This document shows positions 9,757-29,227 of a stretch of DNA of 39,015 nucleotides, in pieces. Both the position numbers and the translations under genes were made by a program. The stretch's first letter is position 1. Each line of letters begins with the position of its first letter. The notes under the pieces were generated by a model, which had not been told where the DNA came from, searched no databases, and saw nothing but the letters and a program-made list of their open reading frames with translations. The stretch is from a virus, in the IMG/VR virus record IMGVR_UViG_3300012168_000002, positions 1 through 39,015 of that record. One strand, given 5' to 3'.

Positions 9757-12700
9757 CTATGTTTGCCTAATACCTATACGCACTGTTAATCCTTTTGCTG
9801 CCGTAGTCTGAATCCCATCCACATCCACAGTAATTATATCACCTGCGGTAACTGCGGTAACACTTATCACTGGGGCAGCCGCTGCGGTTCTGGAAGATTT
9901 TTCTGTTGAATCAATGGTAATTTTTGTGCTGATAACTGTGGTGCCATTCAGGTTTATATCAATAGTTTGTACTCCTGTTACTCCCGCCGTGTCCACCCAG
10001 GCTCCCACTTCTGTAATTGTCCCAGTAAAAGGAAGTTCTAAATCCCCACCAATAGCTGTTCCTGTTGCATTGTCTGTGGTGTTTCCCAAAACTCGATAAA
10101 GAAAATATTTAACATTTCTATTTGAGGCAACAAACTGATCTACAGGCATTGCTCTAGTAGTATCGGTGCCTGTGTTTATTTCTGCGGTAGTAGCTAATTC
10201 TACTCCTCCAACCACTGTCAAAGAAGCCGCTCGATAAGTATTTGTAGTGCTAGAGATGTCTTTATTTGTAAGAGTTTGAGCTGTACTAACATCAACAACA
10301 GTTATTCCTTCAACTGCAATCAAACCAGCAGAAACTCTTGAAAGAGTAGTATCAGAAGTCGCTCCAAGCTCTATGGTAGTTGATTCTAGGACAGTGAAGA
10401 AAGCTGAAGATACTCTTGCTCCAGTGGCTGCTAGTGCGCCTGTCATTGTTATAGCAGTAGCTCCCAAAGCTAAAGTAGTATAAGCAGAACCAGCGATAGT
10501 AAGAGTATTCGCTGAATGAGTTACCGTTACCGCTCCTGCAAGAAAGTTTATTACCGCACCACTTGCTAGAAAAAGGTCAGAGAAAGCTGTCCCTGAAACT
10601 CCTAGCCCTGCACCATCGTTGGCATCTGGTAGAAAATTAGTGTTCGCTGTGATATTTGTTCCTGTTATAGCCGCTGCTGAAGCTCCACCGATTACCGTTC
10701 CATCAAGCGTACCGCCATTAATATCTGTCGTAGTAAGAACTGTGGAAGCAAAGGTGGCCACTCCAGTATTGGAGTTAAAAGTCATATTTGTGTTAGTCTT
10801 CGGACCTAAGTCTCCTGTTGCTGCTGTGAAGAAAGCAATAAACGATGATGTATCTGTCGCTTCATCAGCGACTGTTATTGTTGTTGGAACACCCCCCCCA
10901 GCAACCCAAGAAAGAACCCCTGCACCATCTGTAGAGAGAACTTCTCCAGAATCACCATCGTCAATAGGCAAAGTGTAAGTTATATCTCCTGCTTGAATAC
11001 CTACTTTAAAAGCAGTAAAGTTAGTACCATCTGTCGTATCTTCGTAAAGGCGTAGTTCCGCTGCCTGCGTAGCATTGCCGAGGAATCTGAATGTACCAGC
11101 ACCTTTAGCTAAGAAGTTAAATCCTACATCCGTATCTCCACCGGAAGCTGTGAATTGAGGGTTGGTAGCAGTCGCGGCATTGGCGTAGGTAATCTCGTTC
11201 ACCGCTGAAGCTGTGGTGGTAAATATTAGAAGCTCATTACCATTAGTGTCTGCGAGAAATCCCCCTGAAACGATTTTAGCTTCTGTGAGAGTTTTCGCAG
11301 TGAGAGTTTGCGTGCCTCCCACTGTAACTGCACTTGCAGTGTTAGTGCCTGCTGTGGTTACTCTTAGGTCGCCTGTGGAAACTGTGAATATCCCTGTGGA
11401 ATGTGTGATTACCGCATCTCCGTTAGCTATATTTAGGGTAAATCCCGTTGCTCCGTGTAAGTCAGCATAGCCAAGAGCAGTAGTTCCCAAAACTACTCCG
11501 TCATTAGTCGCTGGTTTAAATACACCTGCACTATCAAGGATAAGGCGGTCAGTTAAAGTTCCTGAACCATCAGGCACAGTTCCAAAAATAATTCGTCCAG
11601 GCATATCAGCACCTGCTCCTGATGTTACAGTCCCGTCTACTTCAGCTCTTATTTGAGCGGCTAGGGTTTGAGTTGCGAAAGTTCCTGTTTGTTGTGCTCC
11701 GTACCAAGATATTTTACCTAAGCCATCTCCTGAAGCTACTACTGTTGAATTTACAACTGCGGCATTTTTAGAACGATAAAATAGAAATTCCGCTTGAGTT
11801 CCAGCTGTTGCGTTATACATAGCAAGAACCATAGCTGCTGGACCAGCTGTTGCACCATGTTCTTGGTAGCTTGGAATAATCCCTCCCATTGTTACGGCTT
11901 GAGCACCCATATATACGGCATTTGGTACTACTGGTGCATCGAAAGTATACGAAGTAGCTGCACCCGCAAAAGCTAAAATATTTCCTGTTTGAGTGATAGT
12001 TACATCACTACTATCCCAGTTAATAACTGCACCTTCAGCAAGAAAGAGATCAGAGAAAGCCGTTCCTGCAGCACCCAATGCTGCTCCATCGTTAGCATCT
12101 GGTAAAATACTAGTATTTACTACATAAATATCAGTGGTTAAAGTGTTCGTTGTCGTATCAAAAGTAAGTGCCGCATCACCTTCTATGGTGCCGTCTCCTG
12201 TCCACACACCCACTTGATTGTCTACTGGCGTGCCTACTTTAGTAACATCCCCTGAACCTGCTGGTGTAGCAAATGTTGGCGCAGAAGAAGCGCCGTTAGA
12301 TTTAAGAAATGTTCCATCAACACCGAGAGCAAGTTCCGTTACATCGCCATTAGTATCAGAATAAAATACTCTCCAAGCGGTGTTGCCTACGAATTGAGTT
12401 AAAGAATCTGCAGAAGTAGCTCTAGCATTTAATTGCGTTTGAATAGCTGAAGTTACACCTTTAACATAAGAGAGTTCGGTTAAAGAGGGGTAGGTGGCGG
12501 TGGTGAGTGAGGCAATAGTAGTAGGAGCATTAAAGTAAGCTATCTCATTGGTTGTACCTGGGCCAACAGTACCACCCGAACTTGGTAAATTGTTTATTTT
12601 GTTTATTAAAAACGAAGTTCTTTGATCTACAATTCCTATGGCCCGATTGATTATGCTGTCAGTTAGTTTGGTATGAACTTTATCTAAGCCTTCAATTTGT

Positions 12701-13173
12701 TTTATTTCTATCTTTGAGTCTTTGGTTTTACCTGTGTTTATTTTTTCTACTAGTTGGAGTCTGGTATCTGGGCTACCATCTGCCCCAGGAAGCCCATTTT
12801 GCCCCGCTACGCCTTCTATTCCATCTAAACCATCATTTCCCTTAATCCCCTGTTTTCCATCAATTCCAGGGTCTCCTTTGTCCCCTTTTTCGCCCTGCTC
12901 ACCCTGTATTCCTTGAATACCTTGCTCACCAGGAACCATACTATCTTGTCCATCTTTTCCTTTGATACTTTCAAGAACTTTATCAAGATTTATTTCACTT
13001 GCTTTGACTTCGGCAATAGATTTCTCTACTTCTTGTTTCAGTTCTTTAGTGAGAGTATCTACTCGGTCTTCTAGGTCAGAAATCAGATTAAAAACCTGTA
13101 AGGTAGTCTTGTCTGAGACTTTACCTTCGATGATGGCTCTTTTTAATTTGTCTTTTTGGTTGTCTGAGAGCAT
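9757..13173 (-). CDS. Long tail fibre with collagen-like segment, 1138 aa
   Basis: Domains in order: N-terminal helical/coiled-coil region (~1-70); collagen-like G-x-y repeats (~70-135, GEQGIQGIQGEQGEKGDKGD); a helical stretch (TKLTDSIINRAIGIVDQRTS); then ~900 residues of repetitive beta units. In these, variants of LPDANDGAALGAAGTAFSDL, followed by a VINWDSSDVTITQ-like phrase, recur at least four times. The C-terminal ~120 aa form a beta domain (TGTITEVGAWVDTAGVTGVQ). This is the presumed main receptor-binding fibre. An HNH gene lies directly upstream. A + strand antisense frame is a shadow. Confidence 0.88.
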   Translation of the reverse strand: MLSDNQKDKLKRAIIEGKVSDKTTLQVFNLISDLEDRVDTLTKELKQEVEKSIAEVKASEINLDKVLESIKGKDGQDSMVPGEQGIQGIQGEQGEKGDKGDPGIDGKQGIKGNDGLDGIEGVAGQNGLPGADGSPDTRLQLVEKINTGKTKDSKIEIKQIEGLDKVHTKLTDSIINRAIGIVDQRTSFLINKINNLPSSGGTVGPGTTNEIAYFNAPTTIASLTTATYPSLTELSYVKGVTSAIQTQLNARATSADSLTQFVGNTAWRVFYSDTNGDVTELALGVDGTFLKSNGASSAPTFATPAGSGDVTKVGTPVDNQVGVWTGDGTIEGDAALTFDTTTNTLTTDIYVVNTSILPDANDGAALGAAGTAFSDLFLAEGAVINWDSSDVTITQTGNILAFAGAATSYTFDAPVVPNAVYMGAQAVTMGGIIPSYQEHGATAGPAAMVLAMYNATAGTQAEFLFYRSKNAAVVNSTVVASGDGLGKISWYGAQQTGTFATQTLAAQIRAEVDGTVTSGAGADMPGRIIFGTVPDGSGTLTDRLILDSAGVFKPATNDGVVLGTTALGYADLHGATGFTLNIANGDAVITHSTGIFTVSTGDLRVTTAGTNTASAVTVGGTQTLTAKTLTEAKIVSGGFLADTNGNELLIFTTTASAVNEITYANAATATNPQFTASGGDTDVGFNFLAKGAGTFRFLGNATQAAELRLYEDTTDGTNFTAFKVGIQAGDITYTLPIDDGDSGEVLSTDGAGVLSWVAGGGVPTTITVADEATDTSSFIAFFTAATGDLGPKTNTNMTFNSNTGVATFASTVLTTTDINGGTLDGTVIGGASAAAITGTNITANTNFLPDANDGAGLGVSGTAFSDLFLASGAVINFLAGAVTVTHSANTLTIAGSAYTTLALGATAITMTGALAATGARVSSAFFTVLESTTIELGATSDTTLSRVSAGLIAVEGITVVDVSTAQTLTNKDISSTTNTYRAASLTVVGGVELATTAEINTGTDTTRAMPVDQFVASNRNVKYFLYRVLGNTTDNATGTAIGGDLELPFTGTITEVGAWVDTAGVTGVQTIDINLNGTTVISTKITIDSTEKSSRTAAAAPVISVTAVTAGDIITVDVDGIQTTAAKGLTVRIGIRQT

Positions 13174-23099: not shown

Positions 23100-23402
23100 C
23101 TAGAGGGCTTCCTCTACCTTTTTGGCGACCAACTCCTCTACCTTTTTGGCGACCAACTCCTCTACCTTTTTGGCGACCAACTCCTCTACCTTTTTGTTCA
23201 CTAAATTGTTGATTATATCGTCTATTTTTGATTTTGGCGTCTCTTTTTTAACTTCTTCGATTACTGTTTCTACGACTGGTGGTGCATACTCTGGCTCTGC
23301 GTGTTGGATTACCTGTTTTGTTCTTGGATTGATGATATTCCCACTTGGGTCTATCCTCTCACTCGTTTTCCTTATGTTTGGACTTATTATGACATTTCCC
23401 AT
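23100..23402 (-). CDS. Small protein with KKVEELVA tandem repeats, 100 aa
   Basis: First part MGNVIISPNIRKTSERID and PEYAPPVVETVIEEVKKETP; then KIDDIINNLVN and four KKVEE(L/A)(V/L)A-type repeats to the end, encoded by near-identical 24-bp units at 23110-23193. The repeats should form an extended amphipathic coiled coil. Follows the capsid gene after a pseudoknotted RNA; may be a decoration or head-associated protein. Not recognised. Confidence 0.65.
   Translation of the reverse strand: MGNVIISPNIRKTSERIDPSGNIINPRTKQVIQHAEPEYAPPVVETVIEEVKKETPKSKIDDIINNLVNKKVEELVAKKVEELVAKKVEELVAKKVEEAL
23110..23193 (-). repeat. 24-bp tandem repeat (3 full copies plus partial)
   Basis: The unit tcctctacctttttggcgac plus caac (plus strand) occurs three times head to tail, followed by a partial fourth copy, encoding KKVEELVA. 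Copies are identical, implying recent slippage. Confidence 0.95.
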
Positions 23403-23414
23403 ATATTTTATTGC

Positions 23415-23473
23415 TTGTTGTGAGCAAATTGTCTTGGGTACTTTGATTTGCTTCTAATACCCAAGCACAACAA
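23415..23473 (-). ncRNA. Pseudoknotted RNA element after the capsid gene
   Basis: Minus strand order: TTGTTGTG, CTTGGGTA, TTAGA, AGCAAAT, CAAAG, TACCCAAG, ACA, ATTTGCT, CACAACAA. The outer arms pair perfectly (8 bp), the inner arms pair perfectly (8 bp), and the loop heptamer AGCAAAT pairs perfectly with ATTTGCT just 3 nt after the inner stem, making a pseudoknot inside a closing stem: 23 perfect pairs in 59 nt. It lies 19 nt after the capsid stop and 13 nt before the next ATG. It could control translation of the following gene or protect the capsid mRNA 3' end. Confidence 0.72.
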
Positions 23474-23491
23474 TTTAACTTAAATTGATAA

Positions 23492-24403
23492 TTAGTCCTG
23501 TGATCTAACCCAGATACCTGCGTTATCTCGATTCTCCACAACTCCGTAGAGCAAGTCTGCGGTTGTAAGAGTAGAAAGATATTCAGGAATGTAGTTGGAC
23601 TGTACACGAACTCCATACTTACCTGTCATAAAACCTCCTGACAATGAGCCACCATCACCTAATGGTGAGGTTGCAAAGTGTAGAGCGTCCTTATGTGCCA
23701 AAGCACCTGACCTTCCAACTGTTCCTGAAATATATTGAATATTTGCAGAAACATAGACTGGGATACCATACAAAGTTGCTTTTGGCGTCTTTGCGGTTGG
23801 GTCGTTGACTGGTGAATTGACGGCAAGGCTGAACTTATCAAGATTTTGAATCTGTTTCCAAAACACGTTTGGGTGAACAAAGAATGCAACATCTTGAGTA
23901 GTGTCTATACCTACTCCTTCGAGAGCAGCGATAGCTGCACGGATTTCACTATCGGCAAGAGCGGTAGTAGAAGCTCCTACTGAACTGCTGAAGTTATCAA
24001 ACAGTTCTGCAAGTGCTACTTCTAATTTCTTAGCGATTGTGTACCCAGCATTCGTAGCATACTTTTCTTGTATGTAGTAAGAATGCTTAACTTGTGCATT
24101 TTCTCGGTCTTCGATTGCGAAAGAAATTTCATACCACTGGTCTACTGTAAGCGTAACTTTAGTATCTGTTGGTGCAGTTACTGTTACGGCTGTAGCATTA
24201 GACTTAACTGCGGCACTCATCTCTGTCATGTTAGGTGTGTAAAGGGCTGAACCTCCACTTGCTAACTCAGAAGAGCGGTCTATAAAGAAGTCTGCAAGCA
24301 ACAATTTCAACTTGAAGAAATTGTTGATGCGTTCCCCCCATAATAGGGGAATTGATTGGGCCAGAGTTGTCGAGCTAGCCGAACCTGTTGGGAAAGTACC
24401 CAT
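23492..24403 (-). CDS. Major capsid protein, HK97 fold
   Basis: 303 aa with the layout of podovirus/sipho-type HK97-fold capsid proteins: N-terminal region ending TLTVDQWYEISFAIEDRENAQ, a central helix (GYTIAKKLEVALAELFDNFS), a loop with DVAFFVHPNVFWKQIQNLDK, then YGIPVYVSANIQYISGTVGR and ALAHKDALHFATSPLGDGGS. It follows a scaffold gene and the portal. It assembles the icosahedral head. No SD; ATG follows a 7-bp hairpin after the scaffold stop. Confidence 0.85.
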   Translation of the reverse strand: MGTFPTGSASSTTLAQSIPLLWGERINNFFKLKLLLADFFIDRSSELASGGSALYTPNMTEMSAAVKSNATAVTVTAPTDTKVTLTVDQWYEISFAIEDRENAQVKHSYYIQEKYATNAGYTIAKKLEVALAELFDNFSSSVGASTTALADSEIRAAIAALEGVGIDTTQDVAFFVHPNVFWKQIQNLDKFSLAVNSPVNDPTAKTPKATLYGIPVYVSANIQYISGTVGRSGALAHKDALHFATSPLGDGGSLSGGFMTGKYGVRVQSNYIPEYLSTLTTADLLYGVVENRDNAGIWVRSQD

Positions 24404-27796: not shown

Positions 27797-27995
27797 AATT
27801 CTTTAATGCTTCCCAGTCTTTCTTATCTTTCTCTCCAAATTTAATATGTCTCCAATATTTGGATTGTGTGGCGTAACATCTTTCAATAGGAAATTCATCA
27901 TCCTTATGCTTTTCCATTAGCGTCTGAGCTTCTTGTAAAGTTATATCTGCGTCCCAACATTCCTTAACCATGTTTTTAAATTTCTCTGTGGTCAT
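27786..27995 (-). CDS. Small protein, 69 aa, after terminase
   Basis: ATGA-coupled to the terminase large subunit. Helical, Lys/Asp/Trp-rich (KNMVKECWDADITLQEAQTL, WRHIKFGEKDKKDWEALKNY). Function unknown; may be packaging-associated. Confidence 0.75.
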   Translation of the reverse strand: MTTEKFKNMVKECWDADITLQEAQTLMEKHKDDEFPIERCYATQSKYWRHIKFGEKDKKDWEALKNYGK

Positions 27996-29227
27996 CTTGT
28001 TTGTGGTTGTAAGTTTCTTAGTCTACTAATAAGTCTATCAGCTTTCTCAGCTTCCATATCCATTCCCACATTCTTCATCATAATCACATAACGTAAAGCA
28101 TCTAATAAATGGTCGTTGGCTTTGACGGGGTTCTCATTCTCGTTTTTATCGCCTTTCTCATCATCATAAGAATACATTTCAAGTTCAGCAATTAAGTTCA
28201 CACATCTTTTATTTACCATGAGTTTGCCTGTAATGAATGTTTCCTTGACTCTATTGATTCCTGCAACAATACTTCCTTTACCCTTATTAACTTCGCGCAC
28301 ATTCACACCTCGTTGTTTTAATTCTTCAATGCCACCCGCATTCTCTGGGTCAGGATAAACTTCATTAAACTTATAGCCTGCTACATATTCCGCTATCATT
28401 GCATCAGTTCTTTCAGTCTTCTTCCACTCATCTTCTACCCAGAATTTATCTTTAGCAAAGTAAACGTTTAGCACACCGGCGGGATTTCTAAATCCAAAGT
28501 CTACACCTCCTAGTTTCTCGTAAGTATTTTCTGGTAGTTCTTCATACAAATGTTTCTCTCGTCTAAATTCCTTGTAAACCAGTCCTTGAGTCTTTTGAAA
28601 ACTCGCCATATACTCCTGCTCAAATCTTTCTATGGGTAGCGTAGCCTTAGCGTTATCTATTTCTTCTTTGGGTAAGAATGGATTGTCATAGCTTGAAAAT
28701 GTAAATGACTTGTAGTCTTTATCCTTTAATTCTTGATTGTATAAATCATAGAAGTGGTTAAATCCTTTTGGTGTAGAAACAAACATTGTTCCGCCTTTTG
28801 TATCAGTCAGTGTTGGTCGTAATACTTCTTGCCAACCAATCCAAAAGTTTCTCATGGAAGCCACCTCATCTAATATAATAAAATCAAATGCTTGTCCTCG
28901 TAAATTCTCAATAGCTTCCCAACCTCTTAAAACAATTAAGCTCTCAGTGTTATCTTGTGTCTTGACTGTAAACTCTAAACTTGGTGCTTCTTTTACTTTT
29001 AATAGAATAGGTTGTAATTCTTTCTTGAGCATCGCAAAAGCAATATCTCTAGCCTGTTGAATCGTGGGTGCTATATAAGCTATCTTCACACTCTTAGCAA
29101 ATGCTTTCATCAGCATTATCTCTACCGCTAAAGTAGTTTTACCCCAGCGTCTGCCACAATTAAGAACCTTGAACCTTGCTTGGCTCTTGGCTACTGTCTT
29201 TTGGTTCGGGTGCAATGCGTATGCCAT
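27992..29227 (-). CDS. Terminase large subunit
   Basis: 411 aa with all diagnostic parts: Walker A GRRWGKTT (residues 25-32), Walker B IILDE (117-121), coupling motif VSTPKGFNHF (~150-159), and the RNase H-like nuclease with GVDFGFRNP (241-249). The acidic C-terminal ends NDHLLDALRYVIMMKNVG. ATPase plus nuclease that packages DNA into the procapsid through the portal. Its start lies 67 bp inside the small-subunit gene. Confidence 0.97.
   Translation of the reverse strand: MAYALHPNQKTVAKSQARFKVLNCGRRWGKTTLAVEIMLMKAFAKSVKIAYIAPTIQQARDIAFAMLKKELQPILLKVKEAPSLEFTVKTQDNTESLIVLRGWEAIENLRGQAFDFIILDEVASMRNFWIGWQEVLRPTLTDTKGGTMFVSTPKGFNHFYDLYNQELKDKDYKSFTFSSYDNPFLPKEEIDNAKATLPIERFEQEYMASFQKTQGLVYKEFRREKHLYEELPENTYEKLGGVDFGFRNPAGVLNVYFAKDKFWVEDEWKKTERTDAMIAEYVAGYKFNEVYPDPENAGGIEELKQRGVNVREVNKGKGSIVAGINRVKETFITGKLMVNKRCVNLIAELEMYSYDDEKGDKNENENPVKANDHLLDALRYVIMMKNVGMDMEAEKADRLISRLRNLQPQTR

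Follow-up and report, generated by a model that had tools for sequence, protein, structure and literature searches.

In viral exonuclease-resistant RNAs, a very compact pseudoknotted fold acts as a mechanical barrier. In the repZ/repA systems, a pseudoknot adjoins the start codon of one open reading frame (ORF), lies downstream of the stop codon that ends a second, and couples the two. Translation there is activated when the loop of a more distant hairpin pairs close to the ribosome-binding site of rep, an effect that an antisense RNA opposes. Such pseudoknots are named for the IncI-alpha, IncB, and IncL/M plasmids in titles cited in PMC10724649. The T4/T2 gene 32 mRNA pseudoknot is a translational operator, an open H-type knot located about 67 nt upstream of the start codon, which nucleates gp32 binding (PMC3014915). 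A 2010 review could name T4 gene 32 as the sole viral pseudoknot in translational autoregulation (PMC3014915). The L17 downstream element (RF01708) is a conserved structured RNA located 3' of a ribosomal protein gene in bacteria, and its function is putative (PMC2864571).

The element analyzed here lies between the major capsid protein (MCP) gene and the next gene in the window, the whole 39,015-nt stretch of viral DNA under study. All large ORFs around it are on the minus strand, and the element was therefore read as mRNA sense in this direction. Its parts and neighbors are as follows.

23415..23473, minus strand: whole pseudoknot, 59 nt, helix order A-B-C-B'-C'-A'
23466..23473, minus strand: 5' arm of helix A, TTGTTGTG, the weak AU-rich enclosing stem
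23458..23465, minus strand: 5' arm of helix B, CTTGGGTA
23446..23452, minus strand: 5' arm of helix C, AGCAAAT, within the loop of B
23433..23440, minus strand: 3' arm of helix B, TACCCAAG
23423..23429, minus strand: 3' arm of helix C, ATTTGCT
23415..23422, minus strand: 3' arm of helix A, CACAACAA; in most relatives, A' touches or overlaps the next ATG
23492..24403, minus strand: major capsid protein gene, the upstream cistron; PHROG 267 and 283 (major head protein), Pfam PF25209
23100..23402, minus strand: downstream gene of a small protein with the conserved N-terminus ISPNIRKTSERIDPSGNIINPRTKQ and a repeat/coiled-coil-like tail
23481..23487, minus strand: candidate arm D, CAATTTA, just 3' of the MCP stop; could pair with the initial TAAATTG of A

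In mRNA sense, positions 23473-23415 read TTGTTGTG CTTGGGTA TTAGA AGCAAAT CAAAG TACCCAAG ACA ATTTGCT CACAACAA. Helix B is a hairpin, helix C is a loop-to-flank pseudoknot, and helix A is an enclosing stem. An earlier note on this DNA had described three perfect helices in 59 nt and the pairing of the loop motif AGCAAAT with ATTTGCT inside the enclosing stem. Both descriptions were exact on re-reading: helices A, B, and C comprise 8, 8, and 7 bp, with no mismatches. Stem B reaches 10 bp in the window if T.G and T-A are added on top. The relatives revealed a fourth helix that the note had missed. It consists of 3 bp between the loop segments, caps stem B with a bulged A, forms standard pairs in 89.5% of the cells, and covaries.

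The mechanisms that come nearest are those of the T4 gene 32 operator and of the plasmid rep pseudoknots, and the element belongs to neither class. Like the gene 32 element, which is linked to translation control, this pseudoknot belongs to a phage mRNA and occupies a gene's leader, upstream of the start codon. Here, in contrast, it is placed between two cistrons, its enclosing stem reaches the AUG, and it has no known binding protein. With repZ/repA it shares the position adjoining a start codon and downstream of the stop of another ORF, whereas the knot is local and enclosed and a Shine-Dalgarno (SD) sequence is absent. The L17 downstream element is similar in being a conserved structured RNA of putative function downstream of a structural gene; it differs in belonging to a ribosomal protein gene and to other organisms, and the present element has no Rfam match. 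As in the viral exonuclease-resistant RNAs, the knot is very compact and could serve as a mechanical barrier; the helix order differs, with the partner strand lying inside the enclosing stem.

Searches of Rfam 15 detected no family above the gathering threshold in the window or in 16 relatives, with chance matches in permissive mode only, and we found no published description of the element in the open-access literature. When viral contigs were scanned with the A-arm DNA pattern, true pseudoknots were detected at this locus only. The covariance model likewise matched each locus once, in every case at this site; the sole exception was a weak reverse-strand echo in L006. By these sequence comparisons, the structured-RNA family is unregistered.

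A scanner for the A-B-C-B'-C'-A' layout (stems of at least 6 bp, short linkers) gave the window's element a score of 52.7, and no other match on either strand of the window scored 38 or more. Shuffling the 39-kb strand 572 times with dinucleotide composition preserved gave 18 matches of at least 38, the best scoring 44.4. The element is thus more than a chance arrangement. Pseudoknot-free folding yielded z = -3.4. The decisive evidence for the reality of the fold is comparative, coming from related sequences.

Two capsid-protein searches of viral contigs returned 37 and 80 loci, of which 85 contigs with a readable gap were left after repeats and truncated ends were discarded. The pseudoknot is present beside the MCP gene in 77 of these 85, at MCP identities of about 42-92%. 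Sixty-three unique copies, including that of the window, satisfied the strict scanner; the remainder of the 77 were repeats or were judged by eye owing to mismatches or weaker stems. The 63 copies comprise 40 different versions of the A arm, 57 of the B arm, and 51 of the C arm, and they range from AU-rich to GC-rich (the latter in L024, L093, and L094).

Covariation was assessed in a plain MAFFT alignment of 39 copies, built without reference to structure. Standard pairs occupied 93.8% of the cells, compared to 38-45% when the 3' partner was slid by 1-3 columns; because the structure string was derived from two of the copies, the slid controls favor the structure somewhat, but not to the extent observed. 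Changes on both sides were detected in 25 of the 27 pairs, and none of 500 shuffles attained any of these values. The G-U cells (63) far outnumbered the A-C cells (15), indicating an RNA of mRNA sense and not single-stranded DNA or antisense RNA; a DNA-level or antisense structure was thereby ruled out. Since the fold is kept while nearly every letter changes, the folded RNA itself is under selection. On this comparative evidence, we regard it as settled that the fold is real and selected as RNA on the mRNA strand. The earlier note had proposed a compact pseudoknotted RNA in the gap between the capsid gene and its downstream neighbor and had named compensatory pairs as a check; these pairs are present in the relatives, and their covariation fully supports the proposal. 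One contig, L011, is almost identical to L010 and L012 but departs from them by about 10 nt within the 5' arms of helices A and B. The difference breaks stem B and is either a real variant or an assembly error.

The geometry of the 63 copies is tight. The A-B linker is absent in 57 and the C'-A' linker in 62, and the spacing from B' to C' is 0-1 nt in 58. The GC content of the arms (A, 21%; B, 51%; C, 40%) describes a strong B/C core shut by a weak AU-rich stem A. Loops L1 and L2 vary between clades, almost no unpaired bases are conserved family-wide, and no invariant core nucleotides of the kind found in a self-cleaving ribozyme or riboswitch were detected across the 63 copies. The lack of loop conservation argues against a ligand pocket or catalytic core.

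In the window, 18 nt separate the end of the capsid gene from the element, and another 12 nt lie between the element and the start of the next ORF. Counting only ORFs of at least 45 aa, the distance from A' to the next ATG is -2 to +7 nt in 50 of the 63 copies (median 2); L024 has about 30 nt here. The spacing between the upstream stop and A is broader (median 14, range -3 to 61), and coupling to MCP termination is thus not uniform. The pseudoknot begins at or after the MCP stop, which lies inside stem A in several relatives. L003 and L024 have an extra ORF between the MCP gene and the pseudoknot, and in L025 and L070 an ORF (HNH/NUMOD-like endonuclease and 60 aa, respectively) separates the pseudoknot from the gene that usually follows. 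In all four, the element is still at a stop/start junction, showing that its placement is independent of any one neighbor. The HNH/NUMOD-like homing endonuclease ORF of L025 (L025:5961-6470) starts directly at the pseudoknot. In L108, the true stop-to-element distance is about 51 nt. An insertion between capsid gene and pseudoknot was considered for this contig and rejected: the ORFs show that the capsid gene itself is interrupted. A LAGLIDADG-like endonuclease ORF (L108:4673-5303) splits it, and capsid sequence resumes behind; the interruption is probably an intron with a homing endonuclease.

The pseudoknot is absent in eight contigs (L037, L099, L100/L101, L071, L068/L090, and L073), which requires about six changes on the capsid tree. 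In all eight, as well as in the distant pelagiphage HTVC026P, the gap contains a stable hairpin (z -3.5 to -6.9), which in L073 is an intrinsic terminator. A stable structure 3' of the capsid gene is thus the general rule, and the pseudoknot is the usual form that such a structure takes in the window's clade. L071 and L068/L090 were also considered as terminators with promoters and rejected, the scan backing a terminator in L073 only. At 23300-23600 of the window, no intrinsic terminator (GC-rich hairpin plus T run) was found. Unlike the pseudoknot, the hairpins of L037, L099, and L100 leave a free leader of 16-22 nt before the ATG and, being at least 16 nt away, do not close the start codon. 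In L071, L068, L073, and the pelagiphage, the minimum-energy fold weakly pairs nearer the ATG, and the contrast between hairpin and pseudoknot is thus suggestive only.

We conclude that the fold probably sets the amounts of the proteins on either side. The reading that we tentatively prefer, at somewhat below even chances, is a post-transcriptional cistron-boundary element that would hold the next start codon closed and insulate or stabilize the capsid message. As a cis-acting structured RNA on a late phage mRNA, it would mark where the capsid cistron gives way to the following one. Stems B and C would together serve as a rigid plug, with arms C' and A' covering the roughly 15 nt upstream of the AUG that the 30S subunit needs single-stranded. 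That the 30S footprint extends upstream of the AUG is general knowledge. Because starts in this phage lack an SD sequence, initiation at the next ORF would stay low until the weak AU-rich A stem, and then C, had been opened. The plug would also prevent ribosomes that have completed the capsid ORF from drifting on to the AUG beyond, and it would shield the 3' side of the capsid message. The net effect would be abundant capsid protein and scarce next protein(s) from a single transcript. Against start-codon closure, the ATG is removed from the element in L024 and, by 12 nt, in the window.

A pure 3'-end stabilizer or processing boundary is a possible, if doubtful, alternative. The fold would block 3'-5' exonucleases or mark a cleavage site, the capsid part of the mRNA would outlive the rest, and closeness to the ATG would reflect genome compaction only. 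Its position just after the presumably most expressed gene agrees with this, as do its persistence when the following ORF changes (L025 and L070) and the hairpins, one of them an intrinsic terminator, in the pelagiphage and the relatives lacking the pseudoknot. A barrier, however, has no need to stop within about 2 nt of the next AUG; the plain hairpins of L037, L099, and L100 stop well short of it, and in L003 and L024 the element no longer adjoins the capsid stop. We rank start-codon closure slightly above a 3' boundary or stabilizer for two reasons: the element fits tightly against the AUG, and the bases to be bound by 30S are covered by the weak stem A. Of the roles proposed by the earlier note, control of the capsid/next-protein ratio and 3'-end protection are thus both still alive: the position against the next ATG speaks for control of the start codon, and the plain hairpins or terminator that take the pseudoknot's place in some relatives speak for a 3'-boundary role.

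It is unlikely that the fold is an operator to which a late protein, whether the capsid protein, the small downstream one, or some other, binds and so represses the next gene in the manner of T4 gp32. Position and geometry resemble those of translational operators, and the conserved N-terminus of the small downstream protein is basic, but conserved unpaired bases are almost nil across the family, and the element keeps its place when either neighbor is swapped. Still more doubtful is an IRES-like leader, which would help to seat the ribosome on the AUG beside it in an organism whose starts lack SD sequences. A compact fold against the AUG and the absent SD sequence would fit; conserved ribosome-contact bases are lacking, however, and the A'-to-ATG distance varies from -2 to 30. 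A self-cleaving ribozyme or metabolite riboswitch is very improbable, for although the fold is compact and pseudoknotted, neither a conserved core across the family nor an Rfam match in the window and 16 relatives was found. Least probable of all is a recoding signal (frameshift, readthrough, or bypass) fusing the capsid to the next protein: the pseudoknot does lie shortly downstream of a stop codon, but the stop-to-ATG gap modulo 3 is uniform (21/19/19), the next gene keeps its own ATG, and the stop lies within stem A in several relatives, so that a consistent frame across the stop is missing and a fusion product is excluded. The earlier note was right to place frameshifting last.

The RNA family shows near-saturating covariation and is tied to the capsid gene of a large uncultured phage group. 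If the element does set the ratio of capsid to next protein, it would be a simple, portable device for tuning stoichiometry within a single transcript that dispenses with SD sequence, ligand, and repressor. It could conceivably represent a new fold class, although we would not expect so: an enclosed, almost linker-free loop-to-flank pseudoknot serving as a purely mechanical boundary in bacterial-virus mRNA, which sets protein ratios by geometry and not by ligand or protein and persists across deep divergence although hardly any bases are fixed. Its compactness makes it a good target for structure determination.

Pairing of candidate arm D with the 5' arm of A is an alternative to A:A' and would switch A:A' off in the main lineage. 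This pairing averages 6.3 bp, compared to 4.9 bp in shuffled sequences, with few single cases significant, and it is lineage-limited and missing elsewhere. The arm (CAATTA/CAATTT) also occurs in the spacers of L001-L007, L013-L018, L021, L023, L027, and L031. It appears to travel with the element, since in L003 it follows the stop of the inserted ORF. Arm D is a possible switch.

In the small downstream protein, about 30 N-terminal residues are conserved and the tail is variable. Its homologues swap between two unrelated coiled-coil-like tails, and the window's protein carries tandem VEELVAKK-type repeats. "Decoration" as its role, the term used in the earlier note, is a guess. No SD-like sequence was detected at the window's gene starts. 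A TATAAT motif is located a few nucleotides upstream of the ATG of several SD-less genes (starts 13714, 20542, and 31975, minus strand), a placement that suggests leaderless or very short-leader transcripts.

No MCP relatives were found in GTDB genomes, and among cultured phages the only one was a 31% partial match in Pelagibacter phage HTVC026P, where the gap holds a plain hairpin. The large terminase subunit of the window is encoded at 27992-29227 (minus strand). Its closest relatives are in groundwater MAG contigs, one from a bacterium (65%) and one from a Candidatus Nomurabacteria bin (47%), and a further relative is in a Thermoanaerobaculia bin (51%). The host may possibly belong to the Patescibacteria. 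Terminases near closely related capsid genes fall into two groups, about 23-36% or 43-85% identical to that of the window, indicating that head and packaging genes have been shuffled. At 9757-13173 (minus strand), the window encodes a 1138-aa protein with a collagen-like repeat stretch, possibly a tail or fiber protein.
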